This document shows, in pieces, positions 2,910 through 37,306 of a DNA stretch of 37,378 nt. Where the stretch lies: positions 1-37,378 of IMG/VR virus record IMGVR_UViG_3300046171_000147. The stretch is one strand, 5' to 3'. The translations under genes were made by a program, and so were the position numbers. This DNA comes from a virus. The notes beneath the pieces are model-generated. The model saw nothing but the letters and a program-made list of their open reading frames with translations. It searched no databases and was not told where the DNA came from. Every line of letters begins with the position of its first letter. Position 1 is the first letter of the stretch.

Positions 2910-3277
2910 GTGCCGGCCCTCAGCTTGACCAGCGGCGACAGGATCTCCTCCACCTGTTCCAGAGAGCGCGCCAGCCCCCAGTGGCAACCGGCATCAAGTA
3001 ACGCATCGCGCATCTTCTGCTGGTTTTCGTTCAGCCTGCCGCCCTTCGGACGCTTGAGCTCAATAAAAATGGACGAGCTAATACCCGTCCTTGAAGCGTC
3101 TGCTGGCACAAAAATTTCAAGATCCGGCCACCCGAAGCGCGTTCCCATGCGCCTAAGTTTCATTTTGAACGCCACATGGCGGGTGCCTTCGTTTGGCGAA
3201 TGATGGAAAACGCAGCCAACAGGCAACGCCAGCTCCAGCCAGTCTGCCACTTGCGTCTGCAGCTCGTCCTCAGTCAT
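2906..3277 (-). CDS. VRR-NUC domain nuclease
   Basis: A 123-residue stand-alone VRR-NUC protein of the PD-(D/E)XK superfamily. It shows the family order: an N-terminal E-x-x-x-Q (TEDELQTQVADWL), then PNEGTR, then G-WPDLEIFV with the catalytic Asp at about 52, then FIELKRPKGGRL with the E-x-K at about 73-75, then a conserved NENQQ. The length fits phage homologues. In the wider family these enzymes resolve or cut branched DNA. It is the second gene after the Cro-like gene, overlapping it by 8 bp. Confidence 0.85.
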   Translation of the reverse strand: MTEDELQTQVADWLELALPVGCVFHHSPNEGTRHVAFKMKLRRMGTRFGWPDLEIFVPADASRTGISSSIFIELKRPKGGRLNENQQKMRDALLDAGCHWGLARSLEQVEEILSPLVKLRAGT

Positions 3278-3482
3278 GGCGAATGTAGAAATCGTTTGGC
3301 ATGACTTCGCCTTGGGTCAGCAGCATGACCTTGTCCATATTGTCTGGATTCGGTATCAACCGCTGTTTGTCGCCATGCGGCAAGCACCAGCGGCGCACCA
3401 CAGTTGCGTGGCTTGCACCCAGCAAACGCGCCAGCTGGCTATAGGACCAGCCCTTTTTTTGTCGATAATTGTTAAGCTGCAT
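3270..3482 (-). CDS. Cro-like helix-turn-helix regulator
   Basis: A 70-residue DNA-binding protein starting at 3482. The segment WSYSQLARLLGASHATVVRRW is a clear helix-turn-helix (Q-LA-x-LLG-x-S-x-x-TV-x-RW). It is the first gene of the minus early operon and is divergent from the repressor gene at 3596, the classic Cro position. Its promoter shares a palindromic operator with the repressor promoter. The call as a Cro analogue is by position; a YdaS-like activator is an alternative. Confidence 0.75.
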   Translation of the reverse strand: MQLNNYRQKKGWSYSQLARLLGASHATVVRRWCLPHGDKQRLIPNPDNMDKVMLLTQGEVMPNDFYIRHD

Positions 3483-3595: not shown

Positions 3596-4345
3596 ATGGT
3601 AACACTCAACAAGGACTACAACATGGCGCCTAACAATCTAAATAAGATGATTCAGCGCTCTGGCTTGACGAACAAGATGGTCGCAGAGCTTAAGGGTATT
3701 CAACCAGCAACCTTATCACGGCATAAGTCCGGTGACATCGGGATCTCCCTTGCCGACGCGGAGGAATATGCTGGCATACTTAACTGCGAGCCGCAGCAGA
3801 TATTTTTTTCAAACCCGCCGATCCCAATACTCGCAACGGTTCAAAACATAGAGACAGCGCACTGCGAGGTTGATTTAAAAAGTTTGACAGAGCCTACTCT
3901 GGTGCTTTGCCAACACCTCAGCAAACATGGCAGCGAGAGGTTTTACAACAAATCTGTCTATCTGCATGGCAATTACAATCATTCGACCATGTGCATCGTC
4001 TGGGACTTGGATCAAGACATTGAGCACCCAGCAAGCTGGCAGCACGGCAATCTCGACATCATCAACGCAGACCCCATTTGGCATCATTATGTCGATAAGA
4101 ACGCGCTTGGGGGCCATTACTGCATCGCAATGACAGATGATGACCGGCTGCTTTACGGCGAGCTGTATCAAACAGGCCGCAATAAATACAACATAAATTC
4201 ATGGAATTTCGGATGTTATGAAAATCTCAAATTAAAATGGGCTACACCAATCGTTGACATGGTAATCAGGCCCGATCTCAGGCAAATAGAGTTTAAGGAT
4301 ACTGACAATGAGGCTTGGGCGAAGGCTTTGGGTGCAACGTATTAA
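3596..4345 (+). CDS. CI-like phage repressor
   Basis: A 249-residue protein. The start at 3596 is chosen because AAGGAGG ends 10 nt upstream; the ATG at 3587 is too close to it, and 3623 is a further option. Residues about 12-70 form a Cro/CI-type helix-turn-helix (ELKGIQPATLSRHKSGDIGIS). The C-terminal 150 residues are rich in aromatic residues and resemble the sensor half of phage repressors. I do not see a convincing Ser/Lys S24 autoprotease dyad, so induction may not be by RecA-style self-cleavage. It stands alone and divergent from the Cro-like gene and is the likely owner of the six-copy palindrome. Confidence 0.75.
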   Translation: MVTLNKDYNMAPNNLNKMIQRSGLTNKMVAELKGIQPATLSRHKSGDIGISLADAEEYAGILNCEPQQIFFSNPPIPILATVQNIETAHCEVDLKSLTEPTLVLCQHLSKHGSERFYNKSVYLHGNYNHSTMCIVWDLDQDIEHPASWQHGNLDIINADPIWHHYVDKNALGGHYCIAMTDDDRLLYGELYQTGRNKYNINSWNFGCYENLKLKWATPIVDMVIRPDLRQIEFKDTDNEAWAKALGATY

Positions 4346-9043: not shown

Positions 9044-9072
9044 AATATGGGGTGCTTGACGTATTCCGTCAA
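9044..9072 (-). promoter_or_regulatory. Promoter with perfect operator palindrome, 9023 operon
   Basis: On the minus strand TTGACG (9067-9072), 17 nt, CATATT (9044-9049). The -35 is one arm of palindrome copy 4 at 9056-9072, TTGACG-TATTC-CGTCAA, the only copy with perfect 6-bp arms. It lies just downstream of the integrase stop, so the 9023 operon has its own repressible promoter. Confidence 0.7.
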
Positions 9073-9078
9073 GGTATA

Positions 9079-10221
9079 TTACGCAAAAATATCGTCGATT
9101 GTGTTGGCGAGCTCAATTTCCTCCTCCTCGTCAGCAAGCCAATGACCATAGGTATCTTGCGTGATCAGCGTGTTTTCGTGGCCCATCAGGTTCGCAACGG
9201 TCCACAGATCTTCCTGACCAAATTTCTTGAGCAGCATCGAAGCGTAGTGGTGCCGCAGCTCATGCCATGTAACGTGCTGGACACCCGCATCCGAACAAGC
9301 CTGCGAGATTGCCTCGACAAAGCGCTGTCCAGCGAGCACCAGCCCTGTCGTCGAAGGCCAGACGTAGGTGTGCAGCTCGGGCCGGCCTAACGCCATGTAG
9401 CGCTCCCGCAGCTCGTCTGCGACAAAGGCAGGAACATTGACATCTCGGATGCCAGCTTCTGTCTTGGGCTCTCCGATATCGTAGGTGCGAGCTTTGACAG
9501 CTTTCGTTACATGCACCTTACAACCCAAGTTGCTGGGCTCAAGCAGGCCGGTGAAGTCACCCCATGTCAGGCACCGCTGCTCGCCTTGCCGCAGGCCGGT
9601 TGTCCGAGCGAACTGTGCCATCAGTTTCCACTTGCCGCGCATCGCACCGATGATCTTGTCAATCAGCTGTGGGCTGATCCGTCGCGCTTTCTCTTTCTTT
9701 TTCTCTGTAACCCCGCCGTGAATCGGCCGCACAACTTTTGCAGGATTGGTGGTCCGACAGCCACACTTGATAGCGTGGGTCAGCATCGGCTTGAGAGCTG
9801 CCCAGAAATTCTTGCATGTCTTGAGCGTCCGTCCCTCCATGACTTGCGGCAGCAGATCCATTTCTAGGTGCGCTGCGGTGAGCTCGGACACGACAACATC
9901 CTTGAGCTTCTTACCGGCCACTGTCATTTGAAGCATGGCTGACATATCACGCTGCTTGTTGATATGCGTTCCGGCTGTCAGGTTGCCGACATCGACGCGC
10001 AGCTGCTCAGCTTTTGACCACTCGACGAACAGCTTGCCCATCGTCCAGTCCCACGCATCAGAGCCAGTGTTTTCCTCATTAAACAGCTGGGCATAGCTCT
10101 GTGCTTTTTGTTTCGTGGCGAAGTAACGCTGTTTGCCACCAACAGCGCGCGCATCGACTGCAAATTTAGACCAGCCTTTTTTCGCGCGCGACTTGTGAAC
10201 TTTTACCTCAACAGCAGTCAT
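9079..10221 (-). CDS. int: Tyrosine integrase
   Basis: A 380-residue phage tyrosine recombinase of normal length. Residues 1-60 are basic and likely bind the arm sites, about 60-170 form the core-binding domain, and the rest is the catalytic domain. Active-site residues visible: Arg211 (TTGLRQGE), Lys253 (EPKTEAG), His320 and Arg323 (WHELRHHYA), His348 (MGHEN) and nucleophile Tyr358 (DTYGHW). The ATG overlaps the stop of the upstream gene (ATGA). It is the last gene of the unit starting at 10675 and lies next to attP, as in typical integrating phages. Confidence 0.95.
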   Translation of the reverse strand: MTAVEVKVHKSRAKKGWSKFAVDARAVGGKQRYFATKQKAQSYAQLFNEENTGSDAWDWTMGKLFVEWSKAEQLRVDVGNLTAGTHINKQRDMSAMLQMTVAGKKLKDVVVSELTAAHLEMDLLPQVMEGRTLKTCKNFWAALKPMLTHAIKCGCRTTNPAKVVRPIHGGVTEKKKEKARRISPQLIDKIIGAMRGKWKLMAQFARTTGLRQGEQRCLTWGDFTGLLEPSNLGCKVHVTKAVKARTYDIGEPKTEAGIRDVNVPAFVADELRERYMALGRPELHTYVWPSTTGLVLAGQRFVEAISQACSDAGVQHVTWHELRHHYASMLLKKFGQEDLWTVANLMGHENTLITQDTYGHWLADEEEEIELANTIDDIFA

Positions 10222-10484
10222 GCGGCAGCTCCGGCGTAGTACGGAAACATCTCGACGCTGAAATCATCGTTGCCCTGCATGTGATCAACGTAATACTCGT
10301 AGGCGCAATGCTGAACATTCTGGTCGATTATGTCAGTGACGCCCAGATCAATAGCATCCACCCATGCCCAGAACGCATATTTGTTGACTTGCTCTTGCCC
10401 CCCCAATCCAGAGAAGCCGCCAAGATTGAAAAACAGATCTTGTAGTCTCCACTTTTCGGCTGTTGTCATTTTTAATTTTGTCAT
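10218..10484 (-). CDS. Small hypothetical protein upstream of integrase
   Basis: 88 residues from the ATG at 10484, which overlaps the upstream stop (TAATG); a GGAGGAG site is about ten nt upstream. The protein is acidic and aromatic (KYAFWAWVDAIDLG, NVQHCAYEYYVDHM). No family was recognised. Coupled to the integrase by a 4-bp overlap, it may influence integration or be a passenger. Confidence 0.55.
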   Translation of the reverse strand: MTKLKMTTAEKWRLQDLFFNLGGFSGLGGQEQVNKYAFWAWVDAIDLGVTDIIDQNVQHCAYEYYVDHMQGNDDFSVEMFPYYAGAAA

Positions 10485-10675
10485 TACCACTCTCCTCCTT
10501 CCGTCACTGGACGAGCTGTCACAAGGAATGGCTTAACGCCAAATTCAGGAGCCTCCTTCCAAGCGCGCGCGATGCCGTCCTCCTCAGCGCCACGCCATGT
10601 GAAAGCCTTGAATGGCTCATGGTCTTGTTTGACTGTGAGATCAGGCCAGACCCAGATTTCGTAATGTTCCGTCAT
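10484..10675 (-). CDS. Small hypothetical protein, first gene of integrase operon
   Basis: 63 residues, rich in Trp (YEIWVWPDL, KAFTWRGAEE, final W). A CAAGGAGG site precedes the ATG. Sequence and size do not match a known directionality factor. It is the first gene under the 10686-10732 promoter/operator, so it would be expressed together with the integrase. Confidence 0.55.
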   Translation of the reverse strand: MTEHYEIWVWPDLTVKQDHEPFKAFTWRGAEEDGIARAWKEAPEFGVKPFLVTARPVTEGGEW

Positions 10676-10685
10676 TCGTTAACCT

Positions 10686-10732
10686 CCTTGTCGTTACACG
10701 TCAAATATAGGCACGTTTTAGGATAACTTCAA
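10686..10732 (-). promoter_or_regulatory. Integrase-operon promoter with downstream operator
   Basis: On the minus strand TTGAAG (10727-10732), 17 nt, TATATT (10704-10709). Operator copy 5, TTGACG-TGTAA-CGACAA, follows at 10688-10704 over the start of transcription. Unlike the other units, the palindrome here blocks from downstream rather than supplying the -35. Confidence 0.65.
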
Positions 10733-10773: not shown

Positions 10774-10792
10774 TGTGATGCGTTTGTGATGC
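10774..10792 (+). repeat. Left arm-type repeats of attP (two TGTGATGC)
   Basis: TGTGATGC at 10774-10781 and 10785-10792, 3 bp apart, on the integrase side of the tRNA-like core. The same pair with the same spacing recurs at 10982-11000 and, inverted, at 37288-37306. This is the layout expected of integrase arm-binding sites. Confidence 0.65.
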
Positions 10793-10797
10793 GAAGC

Positions 10798-10834
10798 AAA
10801 AAAAAGCCCCCGTTTCCTAATGAAAACAGGAGCT
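10798..10834 (-). terminator. Terminator following the tRNA 3' end
   Basis: On the minus strand, arms 10822-10834 and 10805-10816 pair with two G-U wobbles (AGCTCCTGTTTT against AAACGGGGGCT) and are followed by eight Ts (10798-10805). It directly follows the tRNA CCA end, so it is probably the host tRNA gene's own terminator captured in the att core. Confidence 0.7.
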
Positions 10835-10839
10835 TAGAA

Positions 10840-10865
10840 TGGTGGTGAGGGTAGGATTCGAACCT
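10840..10865 (-). tRNA. tRNA 3'-end fragment within attP (not a complete tRNA)
   Basis: Minus strand: T-arm GGTTCGAATCC, then acceptor strand CCTCACC (10844-10850), A73 and an encoded CCA (10840-10842). The partner 5' acceptor (GGTGAGG) and anticodon arm are absent upstream, so this is only the 3' part that restores a host tRNA on integration. The isotype cannot be told from the fragment. Confidence 0.75.
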
Positions 10866-10981: not shown

Positions 10982-11022
10982 TGTGATGCGTTTGTGATGC
11001 GAAAAAATCCTGCTTGTGATGC
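10982..11022 (+). repeat. Right arm-type repeats of attP (three TGTGATGC)
   Basis: TGTGATGC at 10982-10989, 10993-11000 and 11015-11022 (spacers 3 and 14 bp). With the left pair this gives a two-plus-three arm arrangement around the core, all in the same orientation. Confidence 0.65.
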
Positions 11023-11041
11023 GGGTTTTTCGTAAATGCCC

Positions 11042-11070
11042 TTGACGTTTTACGTTAAGCTACATATCTT
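11042..11070 (+). promoter_or_regulatory. Promoter with operator, accessory gene cluster
   Basis: TTGACG (11042-11047), 17 nt, TATCTT (11065-11070). The -35 is the left arm of palindrome copy 6, TTGACG-TTTTA-CGTTAA (11042-11058). It lies 24 bp upstream of the first ATG of the five-gene plus-strand cluster, after the last attP arm site. Confidence 0.65.
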
Positions 11071-11094
11071 TATAGTGTAGCTAGAGGAGGAAAC

Positions 11095-11436
11095 ATGACC
11101 ATTAGTTTTTACAGCGAGGAAATGGCCTACGAGACAAACGGCCTGATCACCAAAACGACGTTAGACTACGACCCTGCCAAATACGAAACCGCAGAGGCAG
11201 CTGCCAAGGCGTTATACGGTGCTCTGGTTGCCAAGTACGGCAAAGGCGAGGTTGCCATCTACAGCCCAGAAGAAACAGCCAAGAACATGGGTGACAACTA
11301 CGCCTATTGGTGGGTCGCACATGAGGCCGGCGAGTATGACTGGGCTGTAGAAGCCAGCTTCAAGGTAGCCGGCAACGGCTGGCACACAGAGCCCTATTAC
11401 GGGTTTGACCTGATGTTTTTTGAAGATGACGAATAG
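11095..11436 (+). CDS. Strongly acidic hypothetical protein
   Basis: 113 residues, preceded by AGGAGGAAAC. By my count it has 21 Asp/Glu, 7 Lys and no Arg, with many Tyr and Trp, ending FFEDDE. Such composition is common in DNA-mimic and other host-takeover proteins but is not proof. No domain was recognised. It is the first gene of a cluster of five small genes that run opposite to all neighbours and lie between attP and the late operon. Confidence 0.65.
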   Translation: MTISFYSEEMAYETNGLITKTTLDYDPAKYETAEAAAKALYGALVAKYGKGEVAIYSPEETAKNMGDNYAYWWVAHEAGEYDWAVEASFKVAGNGWHTEPYYGFDLMFFEDDE

Positions 11437-11444
11437 GAGGAAAC

Positions 11445-11693
11445 ATGACTGCTTTCAATACATGGCTGGACACTTTTGTAGAGGAGAAGGGCATCGACAC
11501 TGAGATGACCTTCGAAGTCTACGGCGACGAATGGGGCTGGAATCTGATCCCGCTAGGTGCCGTGGTCGAGTACCTCAAGCATTGTGACGCCGGCACTCAG
11601 GCAGCGTTCAAAAACAAGGCTGTCCAGATCGACTTCAAAAACGGCAAGCTCGTCCCGTTCTTCGAATATCTCGCCAAAGGACTTGCCCAGTAA
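11445..11693 (+). CDS. Small acidic hypothetical protein
   Basis: 82 residues with AGGAGGAAAC just before the ATG. It is helical with a VYGDEWGWNLIPLGAVVEYL segment and a C-terminal FFEYLAKGL helix. The Asp/Glu excess is modest. No family was recognised. It shares its ribosome-site style and short spacing with the other members of the cluster. Confidence 0.6.
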   Translation: MTAFNTWLDTFVEEKGIDTEMTFEVYGDEWGWNLIPLGAVVEYLKHCDAGTQAAFKNKAVQIDFKNGKLVPFFEYLAKGLAQ

Positions 11694-11706
11694 CAGGAGG
11701 ACAAAC

Positions 11707-11949
11707 ATGCAGTACACACTGAACGGCACATACACCAGCGACGACGTTGTTCGCTTCATCGCAAGCATGGAGGCTATCGGTTACGAATGGACCGGCCTCG
11801 ACCCCAACACGATGCGCGACGACGGCACCATGGTTCAGCGGATTGAGCTGCACAACCAGCCTAAGTTCAAGGGTTTGTGCGGCCCCATGTGGGACGGCGA
11901 CAAGATCCGTTATGAAACGTGGGAAGTTTACGAAGCTCTGAGCAGATAG
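11707..11949 (+). CDS. Small hypothetical protein
   Basis: 80 residues from the ATG at 11707, eight nt after CAGGAGG. It starts with a beta hairpin (MQYTLNGTYTSDDVVRFI), then a helix and further strands (VQRIELHNQ, KIRYETWEVYE). The compact alpha/beta look suggests a folded domain. Not recognised. Confidence 0.6.
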   Translation: MQYTLNGTYTSDDVVRFIASMEAIGYEWTGLDPNTMRDDGTMVQRIELHNQPKFKGLCGPMWDGDKIRYETWEVYEALSR

Positions 11950-11959
11950 GAGGGAAGGC

Positions 11960-12211
11960 ATGAACAAGAACAAAGCCTACAAAATGGTCAGAACGCTGGG
12001 AAAAACTTTCCACAACGCAGCTGTCGATATTGAGTGCGTCAAACAAAAAGACGGCTGGAACAGCGACTTGTTCAACGGGCTCGCAGGGTTCAAGATCCTC
12101 AACTTAACAGACGAGGACATCCCTGACATCACCAAAGCCGTGGACATTGTGATGCGCGATGTCACCGAGCTCGTCTGGGAAGGCGTCCAGAAACACTACG
12201 AAGCAAACTAG
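11960..12211 (+). CDS. Small hypothetical protein
   Basis: 83 residues with a TAGGAGGGAAGG site. It has a basic N-terminal helix (NKNKAYKMVRTLGKTF), then a mostly helical, mildly acidic remainder (EDIPDITKAVDIVMRDVTELVW). No family was recognised. Fourth gene of the accessory cluster. Confidence 0.6.
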   Translation: MNKNKAYKMVRTLGKTFHNAAVDIECVKQKDGWNSDLFNGLAGFKILNLTDEDIPDITKAVDIVMRDVTELVWEGVQKHYEAN

Positions 12212-12219
12212 GAGGACAA

Positions 12220-12405
12220 ATGGCAATCACGGTTTTTGATATGAACAAGGAAGTCGAGCGGCTCAAACGTCGGCCGACATGGGAGCTCAAGGCGATGGTC
12301 AAGGCTCTCGGATTTCATGCGTGGGGGAATACCGACGAGGAGAACATGCGGCGTGAAGCCGGCAAGGCGGTTCTCAAGGAGCGTCGGAAAAAAGGCGGGA
12401 AGTAA
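12220..12405 (+). CDS. Small basic hypothetical protein
   Basis: 61 residues with AGGAGGACAA ahead of the ATG. It is helical and basic (EVERLKRRPTWELKAMVKALG, then EENMRREAGKAVLKERRKK), reminiscent of small nucleic-acid-binding helices. Last gene of the cluster, ending 25 bp before a strong terminator. Confidence 0.6.
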   Translation: MAITVFDMNKEVERLKRRPTWELKAMVKALGFHAWGNTDEENMRREAGKAVLKERRKKGGK

Positions 12406-12430
12406 TCTCGCTGACAACTAGCCAGCTGTG

Positions 12431-12462
12431 AGCTGGGGGCAAAACCCCCAGCTTTTATTTTT
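12431..12462 (+). terminator. Rho-independent terminator of accessory cluster
   Basis: A perfect 9-bp stem, AGCTGGGGG (12431-12439) and CCCCCAGCT (12445-12453), with a 5-nt loop, followed by a T-rich tail to 12462. It ends the plus-strand cluster. The convergent late operon finishes in the tail (stop at 12455-12457). Confidence 0.88.
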
Positions 12463-12571
12463 TGGATTTCATTATTTTCTTCTGAAGAAACTTGGGCAGC
12501 GTTTTCTGTTTTGCTGTCAGCTTGCCGGCTTTCTTTGCAGCCATCTTTTTTGCAGGCATTTTCTTTTTCAT
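12455..12571 (-). CDS. Very basic 38-residue peptide
   Basis: MKKKMPAKKMAAKK and onward, with nearly half Lys, ending KKIMKSKK. Its ATG lies 4 bp after the stop of the preceding small gene. The histone-tail-like composition suggests nucleic-acid binding. It is the last gene of the long late operon and stops inside the shared terminator. Confidence 0.5.
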   Translation of the reverse strand: MKKKMPAKKMAAKKAGKLTAKQKTLPKFLQKKIMKSKK

Positions 12572-12575
12572 GGCG

Positions 12576-12713
12576 TCACTTCTTCTTTTTCTTTTTCGGG
12601 AACCCAGCCTTCATGTTTGCATAGGCTTTCGGGCTGATCGTGCTTTTCTTCTTGCTCCGGCTGGTGCCGGCTTTGCGACGGGCATTTATGTTTGCGTACA
12701 ATCCACGGGGCAT
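12576..12713 (-). CDS. Small basic phage protein (MPRGLYANI family)
   Basis: 45 residues starting MPRGLYANINARRKAG and ending in a run of Lys. The start MPRGLYANI-x-A-R/K-R/K is one I recognise from short uncharacterised proteins of marine and other environmental phages. GGAGAGG is the ribosome site. It follows the lysis genes in the late operon. Function unknown. Confidence 0.65.
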   Translation of the reverse strand: MPRGLYANINARRKAGTSRSKKKSTISPKAYANMKAGFPKKKKKK

Positions 12714-12725
12714 GGGCCTCTCCTG

Positions 12726-12977
12726 TTAACATTTCCATCTGCGCCTTGCGGCTTTTCCTCTTGGGCCGGTCCAGCTTTTTGACCGAGCACAAAAGCTCTT
12801 GCGCCTTTTGGCAGCCTTGCTGCCGGCTTTGACTTTGCCTGTGACTGGTGCTTTCAGTTTGCTGCCTGTTGCGCGGTTGTATTTGGCGCGGCCTTTTGCA
12901 GTCAGGCCACCGCCCTGCTTGACAGAGCGTTTCTCGCCCCTGCCAACAGACAGATTCACGCTTTTCTTTTTAGCCAT
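12726..12977 (-). CDS. Basic DUF6321-like phage protein
   Basis: 83 residues from the ATG at 12977, overlapping the endolysin stop by 8 bp. The sequence KSVNLSVGRGEKRSVKQGGG, followed by GLTAKGRAKYNRATGS, then SFCARSKSW and RGKAARRRWKC, is typical of a widespread marine phage family (DUF6321). All members are short, very basic and uncharacterised. DNA condensation or virion binding would fit the charge but is not shown. Confidence 0.75.
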   Translation of the reverse strand: MAKKKSVNLSVGRGEKRSVKQGGGLTAKGRAKYNRATGSKLKAPVTGKVKAGSKAAKRRKSFCARSKSWTGPRGKAARRRWKC

Positions 12978-13419
12978 CCTTGAGCAGCCCTTGTCTGTAA
13001 CCATTGACGCGGTCATAGGTCAGCAGCTGCTTGCGCGGCTCATGGACATAGCTGCAATGTATCCAGCCGGTGTTGCCGCCCGTGTAACATTCAAGGATCA
13101 GCTGATCGAATTGCAGCTCAGTTTCGATCCACTTAGCCAGATCGTAGTTGTCCACGTTTGCCACTTCGAAGTCAGCTGCCTGACCCTTGCAATGCTGTGA
13201 CTTGTGAGAGCTGCCCACGGCCACCGACAGCTCCGCGCACCGGAAGCCTGACGAAACAATGAATGACCCGAACTCATCGCGGATCGGCTGCAAGATGTTC
13301 TCGGCCAGCTTGGTCAGGTGTTCGATAGCTGCAGCATCGGGCGTGTTGTCGATACCCTTGCGCTCTGCTGTCTGACTTTTCGTTAATTCACGCAACGTGA
13401 AGTTTTGTGAAAGTTGCAT
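12970..13419 (-). CDS. Endolysin, peptidase M15 family
   Basis: 149 residues starting at 13419 (TGATG overlap with the holin). M15 zinc-site residues are visible: SSGFRCAELSVAVG, then S-x-H-x-x-G-x-AAD (HKSQHCKGQAADF; His76 and Asp83) and GWIHCSYV (His121). These enzymes cut peptide cross-links in peptidoglycan (L-Ala-D-Glu or D-Ala-D-Ala type). The length is standard for a single-domain phage M15 lysin. There is no signal peptide, so it needs the adjacent holin to reach the wall. Confidence 0.88.
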   Translation of the reverse strand: MQLSQNFTLRELTKSQTAERKGIDNTPDAAAIEHLTKLAENILQPIRDEFGSFIVSSGFRCAELSVAVGSSHKSQHCKGQAADFEVANVDNYDLAKWIETELQFDQLILECYTGGNTGWIHCSYVHEPRKQLLTYDRVNGYRQGLLKDG

Positions 13420-37233: not shown

Positions 37234-37236
37234 AGC

Positions 37237-37306
37237 AGGATCGAATCCTACCCACGACCCTGCAGGATCTGGGCATCACAGAGCGCTGCATCACAAACGC
37301 ATCACA
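37237..37306 (-). other. Second att-like element (inverted relative to attP)
   Basis: AGGATCGAATCCTACCC (37237-37253) matches the reverse complement of attP core 10849-10865 at 16 of 17 bases. It is followed by GCATCACA at 37273-37280, 37288-37295 and 37299-37306, the last pair with the same 3-bp spacing as in attP. No CCA end or full tRNA is present. Confidence 0.6.

Follow-up and report, generated by a model that had tools for sequence, protein, structure and literature searches.

Lambdoid and T7-like phages carry optional early gene clusters that serve host takeover and anti-restriction, and the five small genes described here invite comparison with them. Temperate marine phages that are assigned to SAR116 and have genomes of some 35 kb (groups G16 and G18, PMC3861242) resemble the window, by which we mean the whole 37,378-nucleotide stretch of viral DNA analysed, in having an integrase, a SAR116-assigned tRNA attP and a similar genome size. 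The late module of the window is HTVC010P-like, and TerL of the HTVC010P-type phages is 56-58% identical to that of the window. A nucleotide search of annotated phages with a 6-kb region returned short matches only, around the lysis genes; the repressor is without a close match in annotated phage records, and a literature search for a matching cassette yielded nothing relevant.

The five genes have attP on one side and the lysis genes on the other (Table 1). They probably constitute an optional and exchangeable early cassette of a temperate marine SAR116 phage, silenced by the repressor in the lysogen and expressed upon infection or induction, with counter-defence or host takeover as its probable role. 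All of the evidence is derived from sequence, and what supports this reading is that operators are common to several phage promoters and change together at them, and that both the gene content and the genomic position of the cassette vary.

Genes and signals of the cassette

Table 1. Features of the cassette, of attP and of the presumed regulatory circuit, in window coordinates
Feature	Coordinates	Strand	Remarks
HTH repressor, presumed cassette regulator	3596-4345	+	Pfam HTH_26
Perfect operator copy	9056-9072		upstream of 9030-8048 (-) genes
Integrase operon	9079-10675	-	integrase (9079-10221) and two small genes; operator at 10688
Two TGTGATGCG arm-type repeats, integrase side of core	10774-10793	+	starts 10774, 10785
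attP core: SAR116 tRNA-Tyr(GTA) 3' end and its downstream terminator	10804-10864	-	sequence match; terminator-like stem 10835-10804
Three TGTGATGCG arm-type repeats, cassette side of core	10982-11023	+	starts 10982, 10993, 11015
17-bp palindromic operator TTGACGTTTTACGTTAA	11042-11058	+	overlaps cassette -35 box; at most one mismatch to TTGACG-N5-CGTCAA
Sigma-70-like cassette promoter	11042-11076	+	hexamers match at 9 of 12 positions
gp1	11095-11436	+	113 aa; member of an unnamed virus-only family, acidic in this branch
gp2	11445-11693	+	82 aa; phrog_6004 (function unknown)
gp3	11707-11949	+	80 aa; 86% identical homologue in L004 cassette
gp4	11960-12211	+	83 aa; 41% homologue at end of G005 cassette
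gp5	12220-12405	+	61 aa; basic, pI 10.3
Intrinsic terminator ending cassette	12430-12454	+	10-bp stem, 7 GC pairs, T tail

The initial annotation had described a self-contained group of five genes running against the late operon, each with a near-perfect GGAGG site and together enclosed by their own promoter and terminator, and this description is borne out. All five reading frames are present and each has homologues, every right-hand neighbour is on the minus strand, and both the terminator and the promoter-like hexamers were located. The intergenic gaps within the cassette are just 8-13 nt, with 11707 as the start of gp3 (the list of reading frames gives a longer version that opens at a false GTG). 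AGGAGG precedes each of the five genes, whereas AGGAGG or better precedes only three of 30 genes checked elsewhere.

That genes so small and nameless might be chance reading frames without function has a negligible probability, given the homologues of all five and their five strong Shine-Dalgarno sites. Moreover, dN/dS values against homologues are approximately 0.13-0.25 for the four genes tested (gp1, gp2, gp3 and gp5; about 0.17 for gp1 and 0.14 for gp3), which refutes chance reading frames since such ratios indicate that these four proteins are under purifying selection. Downstream of the cassette, several very short Lys/Arg-rich proteins (phrog_25774, phrog_10346) are encoded on the minus strand at 12455-13016, and in the relatives G003 and G005 their counterparts are near the endolysin.

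The initial annotation had called all five proteins unrecognised, and none of them indeed has a known function, but the statement fails for gp2, which is a full-length member of phrog_6004 (E 1.4e-23, residues 1-82 on profile positions 1-85 of 88). Other members of this family are in Mycobacterium phages and in Methylophilales Melnitz phages, and no function is recorded for it. The AlphaFold model of gp2 is a small alpha-beta domain (pLDDT 94.7), for which a fold search found no relative in the PDB. The gp3 and gp4 proteins have no match in annotated phages. As sole query against viral contigs gp4 gave no confirmed relative, and its homologues, which are also in L118, L222, L228 and L234, surfaced only through neighbouring genes. 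Homologues of gp5 that are 47-71% identical are encoded in the cassettes of G003 and G005, and the family spans at least 177 viral loci. Searches of the cassette proteins against Pfam, NCBIfam, PADLOC (whose models are of defence rather than anti-defence) and PDB sequences gave no match, and none of the five genes could be assigned to any known family of defence or anti-defence proteins in these libraries.

The composition of gp1 is exactly as initially annotated (21 Asp/Glu, 7 Lys and no Arg); with a pI of 4.25 and a net charge of -14 in 113 residues it is the most acidic, per residue, of the 48 window proteins. This composition had prompted the suggestion that gp1 is a DNA mimic, acting in anti-restriction or anti-defence. 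The suggestion is weakened because the gp1 family, which spans at least 166 viral loci, does not conserve this acidity: its net charges range from -16 to +5 with a median of about -3, and some members are neutral or positive. Extreme acidity is a trait of this gp1 branch only. The conserved motifs (W-x-V..EAG..W and EPYY.FDL) are aromatic rather than an acidic run, with the most conserved residues being aromatic and within the C-terminal half. No family was found in Pfam, PHROG, NCBIfam or PADLOC and no match among PDB sequences, and a fold search with a model of moderate quality (mean pLDDT 77) gave no PDB match at E ≤ 0.001. We thus regard a DNA-mimic gp1 as highly improbable.

An operator common to several phage promoters

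The palindrome on the -35 box of the cassette promoter recurs at other phage promoters. TTGACG-N5-CGTCAA, with one mismatch or none, occurs at six sites in the window where 0.1 are expected, and all six are intergenic. Two (3525 and 3564) are upstream of the repressor gene and one (4356) is downstream of it, before the early operon; the remaining three precede the 9030-8048 genes (9056), the integrase operon (10688) and the cassette (11042). In relatives the sequence of the operator differs, but it does so in concert at the cassette, repressor and integrase sites, giving types TTGACG, TTGGCA, TTGACA and TTGACT. Halves of the TTGGCA type are present at the cassette, repressor and, where seen, integrase sites of G005, L222, L228 and L234, those of L251 are of the TTGACA type, and those of L257, L258 and L266 are of the TTGACT type. 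The cassette operator of G003 is TTGACGTATTGCGTCAA, and its integrase-operon site differs by one change.

Because the operators change together at separate promoters, a single regulator presumably controls them, and this co-change is the best evidence suggesting that the cassette, repressor, early-operon and integrase-operon promoters are under common control. The initial claim that the cassette is repressor-controlled is therefore supported at the level of sequence, and the cassette can be described as a self-contained unit with its own operator-promoter that belongs to the repressor regulon of the phage. We infer that the repressor binds the cassette operator, and go no further because the recognition helix fails to explain two loci: the helix SRQ is paired with TTGGCA in five loci, but with TTGACG in L239 and L261. 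The repressor-operator link is thus not clean at the protein level, L239 having a helix of the TTGGCA group and operators of the TTGACG type, and this counts against our preferred reading. The operator may instead be bound by a Cro-like protein, encoded on the minus strand at about 3270-3480, or by both this protein and the repressor. The operator types would predict immunity groups among these phages.

With the shared operator on its promoter, the cassette would be held off by the phage repressor in the lysogen, and upon infection or induction it would be transcribed together with the early genes. Its products would then be dispensable proteins that act upon the host cell, perhaps most likely in counter-defence or host takeover, and each might be useful against only some hosts.

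attP and the integrase arm-type repeats

The attP that the initial annotation placed beside the cassette is real. Its core is identical to the 3' end of a host tRNA, flanked by arm repeats, with the integrase adjoining. The core matches tRNA-Tyr(GTA) 3' ends exactly over 25 nt in four SAR116 genomes, the terminator sequence being matched too, and the longest match, up to 42 nt, is with L029. The TGTGATGCG repeats most probably serve the integrase as arm sites, because they bracket the core and because the same arrangement recurs about a different tRNA core in the relatives G003 and G005; these two observations also rule out the repeats as the operator of the cassette. We likewise reject a derivation of the cassette from a host through imprecise excision next to attP, as its genes and its operator belong to the phage group. 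A search of 136 SAR116-order genomes for integrated copies found neither an integrase match at E ≤ 1e-40 nor gp1; the absence of gp1 counts in favor of an optional phage cassette.

Integration would leave the cassette at the end of the prophage opposite the integrase, which is a usual site of lysogenic-conversion genes. A moron expressed from the prophage at that end would agree with the cassette's own promoter and terminator, with its orientation against the late genes and with the adjoining attP. It is nonetheless unlikely, for the operator overlapping the -35 box matches the repressor's own operators, which predicts no cassette expression in the lysogen, and the cassette of relatives is located elsewhere than at the prophage end.

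Repeats of the arm type are also present in the spacer between TerL and TerS (37273-37306), where they are spaced by 11 bp and agree in sequence with the arm repeats at attP in the same genome (10774-11023 in the window). Four types were recognized at the two places: TGTGATGC (the window, G003 and G005), CGGTCACTG (L222, L228 and L234), GGTCACA (L215) and GTACCCA (L251); L257, L261 and L265 gave no clear match between spacer and arm repeats. L240 (the same as G005) and L222 are 97% identical in TerS and 95% identical in integrase, and the repeat type switches at both places; ten of the 17 integrase substitutions are in residues 6-25. The N-terminal region of such integrases binds arm sites. 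Most simply, these sequences would mean that the integrase has further binding sites close to the terminase genes, which might couple integration to packaging. A literature search by title and abstract gave no evident account of arm-type repeats between TerL and TerS, and their switching together with the attP arms is perhaps more surprising than the cassette. In the same spacer, ahead of the repeats, GGATCGAATCCTACCCACGACC (37236-37257) is similar to the 3' end of tRNA-Tyr in the attP core; it is either a degenerate attP-like half-site or a chance likeness.

The cassette in relatives and its possible roles

A scan based on the repressor recovered 76 loci; most relatives are metagenomic fragments, and locus counts here are lower bounds from pattern-based scans. 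Where relatives have the cassette it usually occupies the interval from TerS to DUF6362, on the opposite strand, often with gp5 and gp4 at its end and with gp1, gp2, gp3, y92 or c78 exchanged upstream. The gene orders in this interval are c101-c77-c78-[..]-y92-gp5-gp4 (L228), c78-gp1-y92-gp5-gp4 (G005), c78-[..]-gp2-gp5-gp4 (L234), c101-c77-c78-gp2-[..]-gp5-gp4 (L118), c93-c69a-gp1-x72-gp5-c69b (G003) and c101-c77-c78-gp3 (L004). The interval of L214, L215, L239 and L198 holds no cassette, since the gap is only 62-212 bp. The gene content thus varies and the cluster is sometimes absent, so that comparison of the locus, proposed with the initial annotation as a check against an invariant cluster, leaves its reading standing.

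The position beside attP was seen in one contig only, the window; the sequence of G001, almost the same phage, breaks off within the integrase and leaves the cassette region uncovered. As none of about 25 relatives with a sequenced integrase-lysis interval has a recognizable cassette there, the arrangement of the window, with gp4 before gp5, appears to be a rearrangement seen once. At the left of the window, an HNH endonuclease gene (1952-2725) adjoins a partial-length DNA methyltransferase gene (1431-1955, phrog_799); among related genomes the former was detected only in the window, G001 and L239, and the latter in many.

The proximity to TerS bears on the main rival to a host-directed function, in which the cassette proteins regulate or assist the cycle of the phage itself, in packaging, replication or integration. 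The cassette adjoins TerS in most relatives and attP in the window, and in 42 further marine viral loci (L047-L113) the gp1 family is divergent from TerS; gp1 could accordingly have a virion or packaging role. In these same loci a nuclease-like gene and an Api92-like gene (DUF1281_C, a weak match) are often nearby. But the content is shuffled, the TerS-DUF6362 interval is without a cassette in relatives that have the same TerS and integrase modules, and small optional early genes are host-directed more often than not. We consider such a role within the phage cycle rather doubtful, less so than the moron, and continue to favor a host-directed cassette, although the lack of a family, fold or defence-library match for its proteins (phrog_6004 apart) also counts against that reading.

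More tentatively, the cassette could be an interchangeable set of new counter-defence modules, with gp1, gp2 and y92 as alternatives to each other ahead of a core made up of gp5 and gp4, and with gp1 as the founding member of a widespread but unnamed marine counter-defence family; we hold this to be possible, and only slightly less doubtful than a role in the cycle of the phage itself. With the cassette, temperate phages of SAR116, an abundant and mostly uncultured marine clade, offer a set of genes that is defined, regulated and exchangeable, and its small protein families, some of them in well over 100 viral contigs, are a ready list for counter-defence testing.

The cassette shares with morons, the insertions made up of promoter, gene and terminator, its own promoter and terminator, its location on the opposite strand and its optional presence; it differs from them in that its promoter bears the operator of the phage repressor and its gene set belongs to the phage regulon. 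It is like the optional early clusters of the lambdoid and T7-like phages in its small proteins, its early or repressor-type control and its variation in presence and absence, and differs from these in that none of its five proteins is related to a characterized one.
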